Shown: piece by piece, positions 38,307 to 46,696 of the stretch
Position numbering within the stretch: position 1 is the stretch's first letter
Layout of the letters: each line of letters starts with the position of its first letter
Assembly (NCBI GenBank): GCA_944326555.1
Contig: CALVEK010000015.1
Coordinates: 1-64,000 of the forward strand
DNA length: 64,000 bases
Direction of reading: 5' to 3'
Source: Candidatus Gastranaerophilales bacterium
Lineage (GTDB): Bacteria > Cyanobacteriota > Vampirovibrionia > Gastranaerophilales > Gastranaerophilaceae
Translations under genes and position numbers: made by a program
The notes under the pieces: model-generated
Told to the model about the DNA's origin: nothing
Databases searched by the model: none
The model's input: the letters and a program-made list of their open reading frames with translations, nothing else

Positions 38307-41300
38307 TTATACTTTTAAGTTGTTCAATTGGCAGAATGCTTTGAAAGATGCAAAGTTCTTTTGCGTTTCTTTAGTAATTTCTTCTATGCCAAGATGTTCG
38401 ACAAGAGTAAGAACTTTTTTGTATGTGTTCATTGCGTTTTGCGCGTATGTAGCTTTGTTTTGAGGTTTTTTAGATACCATTTCTTCAAGGTATTTTGCAT
38501 AAAGTTGGTATAATTGAACTTTTAAAAGTTTCATATCGTATTCTTTTACTATCATCAAGGCTTTTTCTATATACATTTTTGCTGCTTCCATATCTCCTTT
38601 TATCAAGAATATTTCTGCAATTAATTTTTTGTACAAAACCATAAAGTAGTAATTGGAAATCTTTGGATTTTTTGCCACATCCAGTGCTTTTTGAGAGATA
38701 TCAAGTGCTTTGTCTGTGCCTTCCGTAACGAGAGTTATTTTTGCTATGTAATACCAGCAAAGAAGTGCACCTATTGCTATTTTTTCTCTGGCAAAAATTG
38801 TTACCTGCTCATTAAAGATATCAAGAGCTTTTGACAGGTTGCCTTCTTCTTGAAGAATTTTGCCGAGAAATACCTTTAGAAGATTCTTTATCAATACATC
38901 ATTGTAGTTATTTGCAAAAGTTACAACAGAGTACATATCTTCTTTTATGTTTTGCCAATCTCGTTTGTATATTTTGTTTAGAATATTTGTGAAGTTCCAA
39001 AGTGAAATTACGTTGGGCTCAAGAATCTCTTTTGCTGTTTCTTGTGTAAATTCGACAAGAATGTCTTCCGATTTTTTAATATTGCCCTGTATGCTGTATG
39101 CAAGTGCTTTTGCCAGTTTTAGTCTTTGCAGGTAATTTTTGTTTGTAACATTGTTTTTAGAGACTATTTCATCAATTACCGATAGTATATCAAAGCATTT
39201 TTTGTTACCTTGAGAAATCATGGCCATAACGACTATGAGATTACATTCAAGCCAAGTTTCATAAATTATATCCATAGATATATTGTTATTTGGTATTACA
39301 TTTGACAGTGCCTGTTCTACCGTTGGAATAATTTCGTTTGATGCCAGATTATAAATTTCTTCTGCATTACCGATACAGAACATTGCTTTTAGCTTTTTGT
39401 ATTTTATCAATGCTGTTTCGAGTTTATTTTCAGGCGTTTCTACAATTTGCAGTATCATATCAATCGCTTCGATTACGCCGTTATAGTTGCCTATTAGAGA
39501 GCAGCTTTTTGAGAGATATCCCGATAGTTCAACAATTTTTGGACTATTGTTTATTTTTATGGCATTACTTATTGCGTTGGATAAATAAGGAACAGCTTCT
39601 GACGGACGTGTATTGTAGAGGAGCTTACCCAGTCTTTCTTGTATATTGTTGATTATTACATTGTTGTTTTCGGGATGAATTTCTTGTGCAATTTTTAGGC
39701 ATTGTTTTTGAGATAATGTCCACAAATGTTCATCACCAAGATATGCGCACAGTTTGATATTTTCTGTCCAGATGTTAAGAGCTAAAAGTTTTTGGTTTAA
39801 ATTCTGCGCTATTAGTGCTTTTAAGGAATTGCTCGACAGAGTAAAAGAGTTTATTATGTCAAATATTTTTTCATTTATTACGACAAAATCTTTGCTGCGT
39901 TTTGCTTTTTCATAAACAAATTTCCAAAGCAGGGTGTTTTTAAATTCAAAGATATTATTGTTAAACTGAGATATATATGCAAAAGAGCACAGCATTTGTA
40001 TTGTTGTTTGGAATTCTTCGGGGTTGTATTTCATTATTATTTCAAGCAATTTTACGTTGAATTTATTTCCCATAATTGCGGCTGTGCAAAGAGTTTTAAA
40101 TTCTTTAGGATATTTCTTTTGCAAGATATTGAGTCTTAGTGCCAAAATCTGTTGGAAGTTTTTAGGCAGTTTGTCTTCTATTTGAGTTTTTCTGTATTTT
40201 AGTACGTTACCGTCAGGAACAAATGATTTAAAATCATTTAACAGAACCAATGCCTGCTCTATGTAAGCACTATTGCCTTTTGAATAATTGAATATTCTTT
40301 CAGTCAGTTCTTCAGGAAGAGGGTTAATTCCGTTAAAGAACATTTTTATCAGGTTATCTGTGTCGGCTTTTGTGAGTTTAGCAAGTCTTATATCTTCGTA
40401 TTGGTTTTGAGATAGTTTTTCCGAGTAAAAATATCCTTGAGTTATTCTGTTATCTTTGTATGTGATAATTAGTTTTATGTTTTCTCCAAGATGACCTTGG
40501 TCTACAAAGTATGATAAAAAGGCGTAAGAAGCTCCGTCAATCATGTCAAAGTCATCTATTACTATAATTAGTTTTGCTTTTTTGGAAATTTCAAGAATAA
40601 GTTTTTCCAATAGTGCGAATGTATAATCTTTGTTTACAAGTATTTCTTCAAAATTAGATGTTAAATTCGGATATAGGAAATTGAAAAGGTTGAATACTTC
40701 ATCTTGTGAAAGATTTGGAAATGTTGCAGACAACATGGTTTTTGCCTGTTTCACAAAATCTTGCGACATATTAGAAAAGTTTGGCATGTTAAAGAAAGTC
40801 AGTATCATTTCTTGGAATATGCCAAAAGGACTTATTTGTGAGTTTGCAGAGCATTCTCCCCATAACCAGGCATGGTTTTGATGCATTAAGTCATTAAATA
40901 GATATTTTAAAACGGTAGACTTGCCGCTACCTTCAGGCGCACTCATCCCTATTATGAGTTTTTCCGGTTTTCTTATTGCATTGACTATAAGGTTTTTACA
41001 TTTTAATTGATCGCAGGCTTTTACAGGGCCGTCATCATAACTTGTATCTTGGGCATTTTCGACTGTTTCTCTTTCTGGATTGTCGATTTTAGTATCTTTA
41101 ATTTCTTCTTTTTTTGTTTCTTGTATTTTGGGTGATTCTTTAGTCTGGGCACTGTCCGTGCTGCTGTCTGTGGCGCTGATTTTTTCGGTATTATCTTTTA
41201 TTTGTTCTTTTGGTTGTTCTGCTTTTGGTTCTTTTGCCGTTTCGTTTTGTTGTTGTTCTGTATCATTTTTTACGGTTAATTCTTTGTTTTTAGAACTTGT

Positions 41301-42029
41301 TTCTTGGGCAAGCTCTTTTTGTGTTTCTTTTATTTCTTTTTCAATATTAGCTTTTATGCCTGTTTCATTTTGTTCTTGATTTTGTGAAACAGTATCTACA
41401 GTTTTTTGTTTATTTATTTCATCATATTCAGGAACAATGTCATTGTCCTGGAATTTATCAAATTCCTCTTCACTTATTTCTACGACTTCAAATTGTTCAT
41501 TCGGGTCATATTCTTGCATTTCAAAGTCAGTCATTTCATCAAGTTGTAGGGGGGTATCTTCAAGGGAGTTTTCTACTTCTTTTTGAAATGCTATCTTGTC
41601 CTCGTCTTTTATATTATTTGAAGTGTTTTCTTCAGTTTGCTGTGTATCTGATTTTTCTGTTTCTGCTGATGCTGTATCAAAAGAAGATGCAGTTTCTTGT
41701 TTGATTTCTTTTTCTTGTTCTTTTATATTTTCCTTTTTGGCTTTTTGTAATTTTATTTCGTCAGAAAGTTCTTTTAAGTCTGTGATAGACAAACCTTCTT
41801 CTTTTTCGAATTTAGTGTGGCATTTTCTGCATTCTGATGCATCGGGGTAATTTACGCTATGACAGTTGGGGCAGTATTTTAAAAGTTGGAGTCCGCAACC
41901 GTCGCAAAACTCTGATGTTATCGGGTTAATTGTTCCGCAAATCGGGCATACGGACTTTACTTTTGTGTTGCAATAATTGCATCGCAAAAGTTCATCTGAT
42001 ATTTCCTTTTTGCATTTGAGGCAACGCAT
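38307..42029 (-). CDS. zinc-ribbon / STAND-type ATPase / TPR protein
   Basis: A 1240-residue cytosolic protein. Residues 1-70 hold four CxxC pairs forming zinc ribbons (CLKCKKEI, CNYC, CPICG..CDGCG, CPNCH..CRKC). A 270-residue acidic, Gln/Glu-rich linker follows. The ATPase has Walker A APEGSGKST near residue 367 and Walker B IIVIDDFDMIDG, with LWGECSANSQISPFGIF as in STAND and adenylate-cyclase-associated ATPases. The C-terminal 550 residues are helical repeats (TPR-like). No cyclase or DNA-binding domain is present. The ATG at 42029 (MRCLKCKKEI) is preferred over a TTG at 42056. It is the last gene of the anti-sigma/sigma cluster and is likely a signalling scaffold. Confidence 0.82.
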   Translation of the reverse strand: MRCLKCKKEISDELLRCNYCNTKVKSVCPICGTINPITSEFCDGCGLQLLKYCPNCHSVNYPDASECRKCHTKFEKEEGLSITDLKELSDEIKLQKAKKENIKEQEKEIKQETASSFDTASAETEKSDTQQTEENTSNNIKDEDKIAFQKEVENSLEDTPLQLDEMTDFEMQEYDPNEQFEVVEISEEEFDKFQDNDIVPEYDEINKQKTVDTVSQNQEQNETGIKANIEKEIKETQKELAQETSSKNKELTVKNDTEQQQNETAKEPKAEQPKEQIKDNTEKISATDSSTDSAQTKESPKIQETKKEEIKDTKIDNPERETVENAQDTSYDDGPVKACDQLKCKNLIVNAIRKPEKLIIGMSAPEGSGKSTVLKYLFNDLMHQNHAWLWGECSANSQISPFGIFQEMILTFFNMPNFSNMSQDFVKQAKTMLSATFPNLSQDEVFNLFNFLYPNLTSNFEEILVNKDYTFALLEKLILEISKKAKLIIVIDDFDMIDGASYAFLSYFVDQGHLGENIKLIITYKDNRITQGYFYSEKLSQNQYEDIRLAKLTKADTDNLIKMFFNGINPLPEELTERIFNYSKGNSAYIEQALVLLNDFKSFVPDGNVLKYRKTQIEDKLPKNFQQILALRLNILQKKYPKEFKTLCTAAIMGNKFNVKLLEIIMKYNPEEFQTTIQMLCSFAYISQFNNNIFEFKNTLLWKFVYEKAKRSKDFVVINEKIFDIINSFTLSSNSLKALIAQNLNQKLLALNIWTENIKLCAYLGDEHLWTLSQKQCLKIAQEIHPENNNVIINNIQERLGKLLYNTRPSEAVPYLSNAISNAIKINNSPKIVELSGYLSKSCSLIGNYNGVIEAIDMILQIVETPENKLETALIKYKKLKAMFCIGNAEEIYNLASNEIIPTVEQALSNVIPNNNISMDIIYETWLECNLIVVMAMISQGNKKCFDILSVIDEIVSKNNVTNKNYLQRLKLAKALAYSIQGNIKKSEDILVEFTQETAKEILEPNVISLWNFTNILNKIYKRDWQNIKEDMYSVVTFANNYNDVLIKNLLKVFLGKILQEEGNLSKALDIFNEQVTIFAREKIAIGALLCWYYIAKITLVTEGTDKALDISQKALDVAKNPKISNYYFMVLYKKLIAEIFLIKGDMEAAKMYIEKALMIVKEYDMKLLKVQLYQLYAKYLEEMVSKKPQNKATYAQNAMNTYKKVLTLVEHLGIEEITKETQKNFASFKAFCQLNNLKV

Positions 42030-42103
42030 AGTAAAAAACCGTTTAGCTAAACTCAAGGTATATTATATTATAAAGTTTTGCTAAATTACATCAAACACTC
42101 AGA

Positions 42104-42697
42104 TTAGAAATGTGTTTTGACAATTTGAGAAATCTCTATTAATCTTTTACTAACTTCTGATTGAGATATATTCATAAATTGTGAAATTTCTCTTTGTTTC
42201 ATCTCTTTGACATATCTTAAGTAAAAGATTTTTAAAAACTCTTTTGTCGGATGATTTTTTTGTGCAACAAGAACTATATCTACAATCTTTTGCAGTAAGT
42301 CTTTACGCACAATTTTTTCTTCAAAAGAATCTCTTGGATCAGCTATTTCGTAGACAAAAGAGCCGCCTGTAACAGCAACAGTTTTTGAGGACGTTTCTGT
42401 TGCCTCAGTTTCTGTTTTTGCGGGTACCGGATTCATTAGAATCTCTTTTGTACTGACATACTTGTCATTTCTTCTTCTTACCCTGCCGTTTTCTTTTAAA
42501 ACTGTTAAAATTGCCGTATTTGTTACTTTACTTAAATAACTGCCAATTTCTTCTATATTTGAATTTTCAAGTAAGGAATGTGAACGCTTATAGGCTTCTG
42601 AACAGAAATCTTCAAGCAAATCTTCATTCCCTTTGAATTTATTATTTGACTTAACAAGTTTTTCTATGAAACTTCTCTGTTTTTCTAATGTATCCAA
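42104..42697 (-). CDS. sigma-70-like (ECF-type) factor
   Basis: A 197-residue protein with a sigma region 2-like N-terminal part (NEDLLEDFCSEAYKRSHSLL then SYLSKVTNTAILTVLKENGR and RVRRR) and a C-terminal region 4 helix-turn-helix (KEMKQREISQFMNISQSEVS). The linker between them is Thr/Ala-rich. Region 2 is divergent and short, so it may be an alternative sigma factor of narrow specificity. The gene lies 58 bp downstream of the giant protein with an anti-sigma-type zinc motif, the usual arrangement for a sigma factor and its membrane-bound inhibitor. Confidence 0.72.
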   Translation of the reverse strand: MDTLEKQRSFIEKLVKSNNKFKGNEDLLEDFCSEAYKRSHSLLENSNIEEIGSYLSKVTNTAILTVLKENGRVRRRNDKYVSTKEILMNPVPAKTETEATETSSKTVAVTGGSFVYEIADPRDSFEEKIVRKDLLQKIVDIVLVAQKNHPTKEFLKIFYLRYVKEMKQREISQFMNISQSEVSKRLIEISQIVKTHF

Positions 42698-42755
42698 TTC
42701 CGCAATCCAATTTTATTTGTATCAAATAACTGATTGATTATATCATATCACAGAT

Positions 42756-45700
42756 TTAGAAATTTATTATCAAAGTTAAGAAATAATCAGATTTAAAATC
42801 TTTTAATTTTGGAACACTAACGTATTTCAATGTATTTTTTATGCTTCTCAATGCTATTTCATCAATCTGGTCAGAACCGCTGGATTCTAGTACTTGAGCA
42901 CCTTTTAGGGTGTTGTCAGGTGCGATTGTTACTGATATTTTTATGCTGTCATTGAAGTTTACATCAGCTGCATTTGATAAGTCATTTTGTAAATTCATTT
43001 GAATATTTTTACCAGCGGTTTGTAAATATTCTTTAACAGAACTTTCTTGTGCAAGTTTTTCGCTTATTTGCCAAGAGATTTTTGTTATTGTAATTGCCGA
43101 TGGTTTATCTGAGAATGAATTTGCCATGGATTTATTGATATCCTGAGATATAGCAGGACCTTCGCTATCAGATTCTGCTTTTTGGTTTTGTAAATCCATA
43201 AACATTTCATCAGGATTTTGGGCGTTCTCTGTAGCAGCTTTGTTATGGTTAACAAGCCATGATGCAATACCGCCGCCTGCCAAAACAAGAGTGAGAACTG
43301 CTGCTACTATAATTTTCTTTGTTGCATTTACTGTTTTTTGAGATACAGGTTCTTGAGCTAATTCAAATTCTTTTTGTTCTCCGTTTGTTTGTTCTTCATT
43401 TTCAAACAATGCTTCTATTGTATCGTCTTCTTCCGGATTATCAGCACTCGCTTGAGCGTGTTCTGTTTCATTGTTATCTACTGTTGCAGATACCTCATCG
43501 CTTATAAGCTCTTCATTATTTGTTTCTTGTGAATATTGAGGTTCATTTTCGTTGGCATCATTTTGTTGTTCTGCATCATCAGACAACAGTGCGAGAAGGT
43601 CATCATCCAAGAGATTTTGAATTTCATCTGTGTCTGTCGATGTTTCGGTGTTTTGATTTTCTTCATATTCCTCATTGATTTTATCTGTATCAACAGGTTC
43701 AGTTGTTCCGTAAATATCGGATTCTTGCTCTTTATCATCCGTTACAGACATATCTTCTTTTGAGTTTTCAGATATTTCGTTATCATTTTCTTCTTCTTCG
43801 TATACAAGTTCAACAGGTTCTTGAGTTTCTTCAGCTGTTTCATTCTGTATATCATAGTCATATTGACTTTCTGTTGAAATGTCTTCATCTTCTGTTTCTG
43901 TCAAATCATTTGTTTCTTCTTTTAGGGTTGGTTCGTTTTCTTCTTCTCCTTCAAGAGAGAGGGTAAATGGTTTTCTTTCTTCCGATGGCGCTTTGTTTTC
44001 AACAGTTTCTTCAAGTTCTTCTTGAGGATGTATTTCTTGTAATTCTCCTATATCAGAGAGAGAATCGTGTTCCAGAGTTTCAATCTCTCCTATTGGTTCA
44101 AGGCTGTCAGATATATCAAGTTTTTCCAGTGTAATATCTGTTTCTGCTTCAAGGCTGCTAATTTCATCTGGCTCTTGTATATTGTTGTCAGAAATTTCTG
44201 TTTCGGTATCTGTATTTTCTTCTGAAAGACTTTTCAGTTCATCAATGTCTGCAACATTTTCTGATAAATCAGAAATGTCATCTGTTTGTAGATTTTCAAG
44301 TTCGCTAAGAGGTGTATCCTCACCTGTTAAGTCTGAGTCTTCTTCATCTGTTAATGCAGCTATACTTGTATCTTCTGTGTTTTCTAAAGTTTCCGGTATA
44401 ATATTTTCTTCTTGAGTTTCTTCTGTTAAAGTTGATAGTTCATTATGTTCTTCAACAGATTCTACTGTTTCAAGCGGCTCTATTTCTAAATTTTCAAGGT
44501 TATCAATGTCATTGTTAACTTCATTTGTAATTTCAAGTTCTGTCGGCTCTTCTATACTATTTGAATCATTTTCCAAAATTGGTTCTTCGCTATTATCAGA
44601 TTCGAGTGTTTCTGCATCTTTTATTTCTTCTAATGAGTCTATCTCATCGAGTTCTTCGATAGCTGTTTCTGCAAGTTCTTGTTGTTCTTTGTTTCCGTCA
44701 GAAGTTTCTGAAACAATTGAAATTTCTTCTTCTGTTTCAATTTCTTCAAGTGTACTGAGTTCGTCAAGATTTGCAACTTCTTCATCAAGTGGGACGATAT
44801 CTTCTAAAGTATCAATATTTTCTTCAAGAGGGGCTTCTTCGGCGAGAGTATCAGAGTCAGTTTCGCTATCTGTGATATTTGCCAAAGCGTTATCTTGATC
44901 TTTCTGTTCTTCTGTTTCTTCCGCTGTTTCTTCTACTTCTTCTATTTCTGTAAGGGCGGGAAGTTCTTCGCTTAAGTCTGTTAAGTCTTCGTTAGAGATG
45001 CTTTCGGTTTCTGTTTCTTCTGTAGATTCTAATGTATTTATTTCAGAATTTTCATGGATTTTTGCTTCGATATTCGCAACACCCATTGGCAAAATTTCCG
45101 GAATTGCACCGAGAACAATTGCTTCTTCTGTATTTTGCTCTTCTGTAGAATTTTGTTCTGATATATCTTCTAAAAGTTCAGCATCTTTATCTTCTTCTGA
45201 ATCTTGCTGATTTTCTTCAAGATTTTCTGTATTTTCTTCATCTTCAGGATTTTCTTCGTTTTCTTCTTGCAGGTTATCTGTTAATGATTCGTTTTCTTGT
45301 TCTTCTTCATAATTTTCTTCTGCATTTTCTTCTGCATTTTCAACAGTAGCAAGGCTCCCTAAGATTGTGCTGTCAATTTCTTCTTTGTTGCCTGCAAATA
45401 CGCTTAGGGTACTGTCGTTTAGCAGTTCGTTGTAATTTTTTACCTGAGAAACGATAACATCAAATTCACTCATATCAGAGAAAGTTTCTCTACAAACAGG
45501 ACAAGATATGACGTGTTTTATAAAATATACTTTTTCACTTTCTGCTATTTGAGCATCCAAAAATGGTACGGCCAATTCTCTAACTTTTTCGTGCTCAATA
45601 GATGAGAATATAGCAGGTTTTACTGTTGTTTTTTCGACAAATTCTTTTAGTTTATCAATAGGTTTGAGTATTTCCGTATTGTAGATAAAATATTCTGCTT

Positions 45701-46106
45701 CTGTTTTTATTGTTTGAAGCTCATCTGCAGGAACAAACCCGAGGACTTGTGTTGCTTTTAGAGCGGAATCAAATTTTAACACAATATAAGCAGCAGGTTT
45801 TGCATCATATTTTTCTTGAATTTTAGGTACACTAAAATTACTGCTGTCAAAAGTAGCTCTGATATCGAGTCTTACTCCGCCTACATAGATATCAGCAAGT
45901 TCAAAATTTCTTACAAATTCTGATATTTTGTATAGGCTGTTTTGATTATCTGCGTTTATTCCTTTCGAATTTAGATATTCACAAGCTGTAGTTGCTGCAA
46001 TGTTGAGAATAAAAGCTCTTTTTCTGAGATTTTTTTCTTCTATTTTGCAAGCAATGATTTTTGATTTTTCTACAATTTTATTTTCCAGTTTTATAATATC
46101 TGTCAT
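42756..46106 (-). CDS. giant membrane protein: DUF1822-like + zinc anti-sigma motif + acidic tether + TonB-like C-terminus
   Basis: A 1116-residue protein. Residues 30-160 resemble DUF1822, a cyanobacterial domain (ACEYLNSKGI..ELADIYVGGVRLDIR..YIVLKFD..QVLGFV). HVISCPVC at 198-205 is an HX3CX2C motif as in zinc-binding anti-sigma factors. About 680 residues of extremely acidic, Glu/Thr/Ser-rich, probably disordered sequence follow (about 245-925). One membrane helix lies near 930-952 (IIVAAVLTLVLAGGGIASWL). The last 110 residues look like a TonB/TolA C-terminal domain (VTIAPDNTLKGAQVLESSGS..ALRSIKNTL). Predicted topology is N-terminus inside, TonB-like domain outside. It may sense envelope state and hold the adjacent sigma factor. 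The start follows AAGGATAAAAAA. Confidence 0.75.
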   Translation of the reverse strand: MTDIIKLENKIVEKSKIIACKIEEKNLRKRAFILNIAATTACEYLNSKGINADNQNSLYKISEFVRNFELADIYVGGVRLDIRATFDSSNFSVPKIQEKYDAKPAAYIVLKFDSALKATQVLGFVPADELQTIKTEAEYFIYNTEILKPIDKLKEFVEKTTVKPAIFSSIEHEKVRELAVPFLDAQIAESEKVYFIKHVISCPVCRETFSDMSEFDVIVSQVKNYNELLNDSTLSVFAGNKEEIDSTILGSLATVENAEENAEENYEEEQENESLTDNLQEENEENPEDEENTENLEENQQDSEEDKDAELLEDISEQNSTEEQNTEEAIVLGAIPEILPMGVANIEAKIHENSEINTLESTEETETESISNEDLTDLSEELPALTEIEEVEETAEETEEQKDQDNALANITDSETDSDTLAEEAPLEENIDTLEDIVPLDEEVANLDELSTLEEIETEEEISIVSETSDGNKEQQELAETAIEELDEIDSLEEIKDAETLESDNSEEPILENDSNSIEEPTELEITNEVNNDIDNLENLEIEPLETVESVEEHNELSTLTEETQEENIIPETLENTEDTSIAALTDEEDSDLTGEDTPLSELENLQTDDISDLSENVADIDELKSLSEENTDTETEISDNNIQEPDEISSLEAETDITLEKLDISDSLEPIGEIETLEHDSLSDIGELQEIHPQEELEETVENKAPSEERKPFTLSLEGEEENEPTLKEETNDLTETEDEDISTESQYDYDIQNETAEETQEPVELVYEEEENDNEISENSKEDMSVTDDKEQESDIYGTTEPVDTDKINEEYEENQNTETSTDTDEIQNLLDDDLLALLSDDAEQQNDANENEPQYSQETNNEELISDEVSATVDNNETEHAQASADNPEEDDTIEALFENEEQTNGEQKEFELAQEPVSQKTVNATKKIIVAAVLTLVLAGGGIASWLVNHNKAATENAQNPDEMFMDLQNQKAESDSEGPAISQDINKSMANSFSDKPSAITITKISWQISEKLAQESSVKEYLQTAGKNIQMNLQNDLSNAADVNFNDSIKISVTIAPDNTLKGAQVLESSGSDQIDEIALRSIKNTLKYVSVPKLKDFKSDYFLTLIINF

Positions 46107-46300
46107 TTTTTTATCCTTTATTACAATGTCTCATATTACAGTAGATTACGTTTACAAAAAAAATATTCCAAATCATCCAAAATTCATGTTATAATGTAAC
46201 AAAATGTTTCATTATTTGTATCCATGGTCATAAATTTGGGCAATAAAAAGTTTTCTCATGTTTTGTATGTACAGAAGTGTTAATAAAAAGGAGTGTTAGT

Positions 46301-46696
46301 ATGTCAGTTAATTTTTCAACAATTACGCCAATGAGTCAGTCAACAATTTCCAGAACACCTGCTTTTACAACTGCTACAACTGCACAACAACCTGCTGCAA
46401 GTAGCCCTATTGACGGTGGTTATCAACAACCTAAGAAGAAAAGCCACTGGTTTAGAAATACATTGATTGCTGCGGCTGTGCTCGTTGCAGGTGCTACTGC
46501 CTTGAGAGGCAAAGTTGGCATGTTTAAAGATTTTGATAAAGCAGCAACTATTGCCAAAGATGCAAAATTGATGGATAAGGCTGCTTACTATGGTAAGAAA
46601 GCAGTTGCCGAAGTCGGTGATTTTGTTATCAAATATGCTAATATGGGTATTGAGTATGTTAAGAACTTATTCCAAAAACCCGGTGCTACTCCGTAA
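46301..46696 (+). CDS. small membrane protein with MSVNFS N-terminus
   Basis: A 131-residue protein. The ATG at 46301 has AAGGAG nine bases upstream; an earlier in-frame start at 46277 lacks one. The N-terminus MSVNFSTITPMSQSTIS is followed by a Thr/Gln/Pro-rich stretch, a basic KKKSHW patch, a membrane helix (TLIAAAVLVAGATAL) and a helical lysine-containing tail. The same layout occurs at the N-terminus of the 577-residue protein at 9849 (MTINFS). The function is unknown. It is divergent from the giant anti-sigma-like gene and ends in a strong terminator. Confidence 0.75.
   Translation: MSVNFSTITPMSQSTISRTPAFTTATTAQQPAASSPIDGGYQQPKKKSHWFRNTLIAAAVLVAGATALRGKVGMFKDFDKAATIAKDAKLMDKAAYYGKKAVAEVGDFVIKYANMGIEYVKNLFQKPGATP

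Follow-up and report, generated by a model that had tools for sequence, protein, structure and literature searches.

A giant protein encoded directly upstream of an ECF-type sigma factor gene in Candidatus Gastranaerophilales is probably a membrane-tethered class I anti-sigma factor, which would free the adjacent sigma factor upon an envelope signal. If this is correct, it represents a new way of wiring the cell envelope to gene expression, and it would give the DUF1822 domain at the head of the protein a testable function. The Gastranaerophilales, which live in the gut and are related to cyanobacteria, are represented here by metagenome bins only. The gene pair occurs in almost all of the order, has a recognisable promoter and offers a ready entry to regulation in these organisms. 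The relevant features of the window, by which the whole analysed stretch of 64,000 nucleotides is meant, are the following.

46142-46169, minus strand: predicted ECF-like promoter, GGAATAT-N16-ATCTA, from the alignment of upstream regions.
42756-46106, minus strand: open reading frame of the giant anti-sigma-like protein, 1116 residues.
45612-46106, minus strand: DUF1822 N-terminal domain, residues 1-165, from a profile match and an AlphaFold model.
45387-45611, minus strand: class I anti-sigma domain (zf-HC2/ZAS-like helical bundle), residues 166-240, from profile and model.
45492-45515, minus strand: HX3CX2C zinc motif, residues 198-205 (H198, C202 and C205).
43320-45392, minus strand: acidic, predicted disordered cytoplasmic tether, from composition.
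43575-43625, minus strand: conserved short tether motif, EIQNLLDDDLLALLSDD.
43257-43313, minus strand: single transmembrane helix, residues about 932-950.
42759-43082, minus strand: TolA/TonB C-terminal-like domain, residues 1009-1116, from profile and model.
42104-42697, minus strand: open reading frame of the ECF-type sigma factor, 197 residues.
38307-42056, minus strand: zinc-ribbon, AAA_16 STAND-like ATPase and TPR protein, the probable third gene of the operon.

The first-pass annotation of this DNA had described a 1116-residue protein with a DUF1822-like N-terminus, an HX3CX2C motif typical of zinc anti-sigma factors, about 680 acidic disordered residues, a single membrane helix and a TonB/TolA-like C-terminus, followed 58 bp downstream by a sigma-like gene. 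The reading frames bear out both the length and the 58-bp spacing to the sigma gene start, and each of the domains is recovered by the comparisons below. Co-occurrence of the two genes in relatives had been proposed as a check, whose failure would have refuted the idea, and the pairing proves to be widespread. A match to the sigma factor was obtained for 56 of 59 relatives. Of the 55 loci inspected, 50 (25 of 29 genera, all within the one order) have the giant gene immediately upstream of the sigma gene on the same strand. In four genera the two genes are not linked, the exceptions being family f6 and genus g3, where homologues of the giant gene are present elsewhere in the genome. Since the domain architecture is kept across the whole order, the anatomy of the giant protein is not a product of chance. 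The sigma protein itself scores 43.3 bits against TIGR02937 (sigma70-ECF), for which the cut-off is 42.9 (E 2.8e-11), and its region 4 is below threshold in Pfam. A plasmid or phage origin was also considered and set aside, as the comparison gave no match.

The second half of the head carries the assignment to the anti-sigma factors. The zf-HC2 profile matches 19 of 35 relatives (best E 8.1e-7), and a profile of the head region retrieves RsiW from the PDB at E 1.9e-4, with weak matches to DdvA and RslA (E 0.2 to 0.3). AlphaFold models residues 1-245 with confidence (pLDDT 88.5), and in the second half of this model 69 residues align with RsiW (Z 7.1) and 56 with RslA (Z 6.4). The modelled helices span residues 169-183, 189-201 and 203-224, so that the motif at 198-205 extends over helices 2 and 3; the fourth helix of the bundle is modelled at low confidence only. 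Such a bundle, with HX3CX2C spanning its second and third helices, is a criterion for class I anti-sigma factors (PMC7406223), and adjacency to an ECF sigma gene, found at the 50 loci above, is a further mark of the class. The zinc ligands are missing in about a quarter of the giant proteins, having been lost in some genera; zinc and non-zinc groups are normally mixed within class I (PMC7406223). In sequence, fold and neighbourhood alike, the protein thus fits class I (ASDI/ZAS) as a putative anti-sigma factor.

At the opposite end, the isolated C-terminus matches TonB_C above the cut-off (27.0 bits versus 24.6; E 6.3e-6), and TonB_2 matches in 32 of 39 cases. Close relatives of the C-terminal domain in the genome collection carry the name Candidatus Gastranaerophilales, which assigns the genome of the window to that order. 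AlphaFold gives a high-confidence model for the final 108 residues, and the model aligns with TolA domain III (Z 9.0) and with the C-terminal domain of Helicobacter pylori TonB (Z 8.9); a Foldseek search of the same model against the PDB returned nothing at E <= 0.001. It may be asked whether the giant protein is instead a structural component of the envelope, or a motor-coupled protein resembling TolA or GltJ, with the head serving some other role and the sigma factor controlling its expression without being inhibited by it. The TolA-like domain is conserved, and in a mirror-tree test it is this domain with which the sigma tree correlates best, the head not being favoured over it. Additionally, Myxococcus GltJ has a TonB-like C-terminus (cited in PMC8262864), and the unlinked pairs in four genera speak for this reading as well. 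Nevertheless, this explanation is unlikely: an anti-sigma domain lies inside the head, inspection of the membrane helix by eye revealed no SxxH-like ExbB-contact motif, no TonB-dependent receptor barrels were found in five genomes, and the genome separately encodes a TonB-like protein alongside ExbB and two ExbD proteins.

The same observations bear on whether the protein energises receptors in the manner of TonB, a candidate role that was rejected because no receptors were found and the TonB-like/ExbB/ExbD locus is a separate one. An energising TonB has an N-terminal anchor, an ExbB motif and TonB-dependent receptors to act on, and it lacks a large cytoplasmic domain; none of this describes the giant protein, of which some 930 residues are cytoplasmic in the predicted topology. 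Its TolA-like domain is therefore probably not an energiser. The separate locus, elsewhere in the same genome (L086:182-4449), encodes a beta-barrel-like fragment, the TonB-like protein, an ExbB-like protein and the two ExbD proteins.

In the N-terminal half of the head lies the DUF1822 domain. Taken alone, the N-terminus from the window matches DUF1822 (PF08852) below threshold (E 4.8e-4); 34 of 35 relatives match it (best E 1.5e-14), many of them over the curated cut-off, with coverage of the profile confined to its N-terminal portion. Comparison by hhalign with cyanobacterial DUF1822 proteins gives a probability of 97.9% (E 4.6e-13, 145 columns). The DUF1822 half of the model aligns with PD-(D/E)XK nucleases, among them Hjc (Z 8.6 over 106 residues, 3.1 A) and DpnI (Z 8.3); such scores are near background for models of this kind, though the list of nucleases is strikingly uniform. 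Foldseek of the model of residues 1-245 against the PDB gave nothing at E <= 0.001. Residues D72 and R83 hardly vary, and 30 of 35 relatives share D81, with arginine in the place of the PD-(D/E)XK lysine. As a lead, D72, D81 and R83 would be a degenerate PD-(D/E)XK active site.

The occurrence of DUF1822 beside ECF sigma genes has already been reported in cyanobacteria (PMC8195603), and in the present comparison 14 of 30 cyanobacterial DUF1822 loci have a sigma-like neighbour by sigma profile, and more by Pfam. Those proteins differ from the giant protein in being about 310-500 residues long, in lacking both HX3CX2C and an acidic bias, and in having the sigma gene upstream rather than downstream. 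Cyanobacterial SigG-SapG is likewise an ECF sigma factor with an adjacent regulator, SapG being cotranscribed and physically interacting; however, SapG is encoded downstream of sigG (PMC2758279), while the giant gene is upstream of its sigma gene. Because the cyanobacterial DUF1822 proteins pair with sigma-like genes without a zinc anti-sigma motif, the head could conceivably be a chaperone or positive cofactor, which keeps the sigma factor at the membrane and delivers it on a signal. The resemblance of the anti-sigma domain to the inhibitory domains of RsiW and RslA makes this distinctly unlikely.

Between head and membrane lies a linker of 682 residues (239-920) with 37% aspartate plus glutamate and a net charge of -234. 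Its mean hydropathy of 0.37, against a charge-hydropathy boundary for disorder of 0.54, places it far on the disordered side. Linker length in relatives ranges from about 118 to 840 residues, and the composition is acidic throughout. The tether is not wholly featureless, since the motif EIQNLLDDDLLALLSDD is kept in 22 of 23 sequences from the genus. A lysine pair before the membrane helix implies that the N-terminus and the entire tether, which precedes the helix, should be cytoplasmic rather than periplasmic, leaving about 165 residues in the predicted periplasmic part. It had been suggested at first that the acidic region could be a reservoir for a basic sigma factor; charge-based sequestration of this kind, or mimicry of nucleic acid, would suit the charge of the linker and the sigma factor of the window (net charge +4, pI 9.0), but it is very improbable, as net charge among the sigma orthologues lies anywhere between -12 and +16, most of them being near neutral or acidic, yet their linkers remain acidic and vary in length.

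The preferred reading of the giant protein as an anti-sigma factor also draws on the promoter. An alignment of upstream regions across the genus contains an almost invariant block, composed of GGAATAT, 16 bases and NTCTA/T, the layout of sigma-E-type ECF promoters. The pattern matches the 2.08-Mb genome of the window once, at 46144-46169 immediately upstream of the giant gene, and it occupies this position in 23 of 23 genomes of the genus. The block is also present in other genera of family f1 and in families f2 and f4; family f3 lacks it. In its strict form, the promoter is present in 30 of 45 regions upstream of giant genes and has 34 matches over all loci, compared with a chance level of 1 to 4 for all loci together in Markov-simulated sequence. 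Such conservation upstream of the giant gene suggests that the operon is autoregulated by its sigma factor, which would then be the one to read the GGAATAT promoter. In a regulon search with this pattern across the genus, the other matches were scattered and not far above a reversed-pattern control.

The gene at 38307-42056 encodes a double zinc ribbon, an acidic stretch, an AAA_16 domain and TPRs, and its product resembles signalling ATPases of the STAND/MalT type (TIGR03903, E 1.9e-15). It is found 3' of the pair in most f1 loci, in the f5 locus and in one f7 locus. It was also considered as a constant third gene of the operon, and this was rejected: other genes follow the pair in families f2 to f4, such as a radical SAM gene in f3.

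In the proposed mechanism, for which domains, topology, gene pairing and promoter are taken from sequence or structural models, the cytoplasmic head of DUF1822 and zinc anti-sigma domain would bind and inhibit the sigma factor, holding it at the membrane. The acidic tether, the single helix and the periplasmic TolA/TonB-like domain would couple this head to the envelope. A signal from the envelope, read by the TolA-like domain and passed on by conformation or by regulated proteolysis, may then free the sigma factor. Regulated proteolysis is possible in that the genome of the window encodes a site-2 protease (Peptidase_M50), a family that also occurs in 14 of 14 control genomes. Once free, the sigma factor would transcribe the operon of anti-sigma, sigma and usually ATPase genes from its own ECF promoter, thereby resetting the loop. 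Counting against this mechanism are the missing zinc ligands in some members, the unlinked genes of f6 and g3, the missing promoter in f3 and the outcome of the mirror-tree test. A more ambitious version can be put forward tentatively, as possible rather than likely when taken in all its parts. DUF1822 would here be a sigma regulator of degenerate PD-(D/E)XK fold, heading in Gastranaerophilales an anti-sigma factor that spans the envelope and monitors the periplasm or outer envelope with its TolA-like tip, across a tether that extends for hundreds of residues in the cytoplasm. The closed loop would mainly control its own operon.

Several known systems share parts of this design. Like RsiW and RslA, the giant protein has a helical anti-sigma domain, HX3CX2C on helices 2 and 3 and an adjacent sigma gene. 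RsiW also has a single-pass membrane anchor, as the giant protein does. To our knowledge, the RsiW and RslA families consist of short proteins without DUF1822, a giant acidic tether or a TolA/TonB-like end. The nearest known system in design is the Dma family of Bacteroides, in which the long disordered tether is on the other side of the membrane from that predicted for the giant protein (PMC13088901). Both have an anti-sigma head, one membrane helix, a long disordered tether, an envelope-facing end and an ECF sigma factor in the operon. In Dma, however, the tether follows the helix and ends in a beta-barrel, features that are not found in the giant protein, where the tether precedes the helix and the end is TolA/TonB-like. 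Dma has been reported from Bacteroidota only (PMC13088901), and if the present reading is correct, the giant protein would be a second, independent route to an anti-sigma factor that reaches the envelope via a very long tether. The PUMA3 system of Pseudomonas aeruginosa (VreA/VreR/VreI) also combines ECF sigma signalling with a TolA/TonB-like periplasmic domain, which is located in the partner protein VreA (PMC2729926) rather than fused to the anti-sigma factor.

The first-pass annotation knew of no anti-sigma factor with such a tether or a TonB-like end. This needs narrowing, given the tether of Dma and the domain of VreA. Searches of open-licence papers on DUF1822, and on anti-sigma factors that have a disordered tether or a domain of the TonB kind, returned no description of the architecture, and one on Gastranaerophilales and sigma factors found nothing. 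The fusion of DUF1822 to an anti-sigma domain, an acidic tether and a TolA-like end appears to be undescribed in the searchable part of that literature.

In the class-level outgroup G157 (L128:946-2016), a sigma gene of 197 codons is followed by a short reading frame with a zinc anti-sigma domain, a conventional order that may resemble the ancestral pair. In another class-level outgroup, G058 (L127:919-3622), the order is as in cyanobacteria, with a DUF1822-like protein following a 468-residue frame judged sigma-like by eye. A small divergent gene also lies opposite the giant gene (reading frame 46277-46696, likely start 46301) and encodes a hydrophobic helix; it is kept in all loci of the genus examined and matches nothing in Pfam or NCBIfam. 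The interval 46170-46276, upstream of the ECF promoter, contains further blocks conserved in the genus, ATGAAACATTTTGTTACATTATA and TTTATTGC, which may represent another promoter or belong to the signals of the divergent gene.
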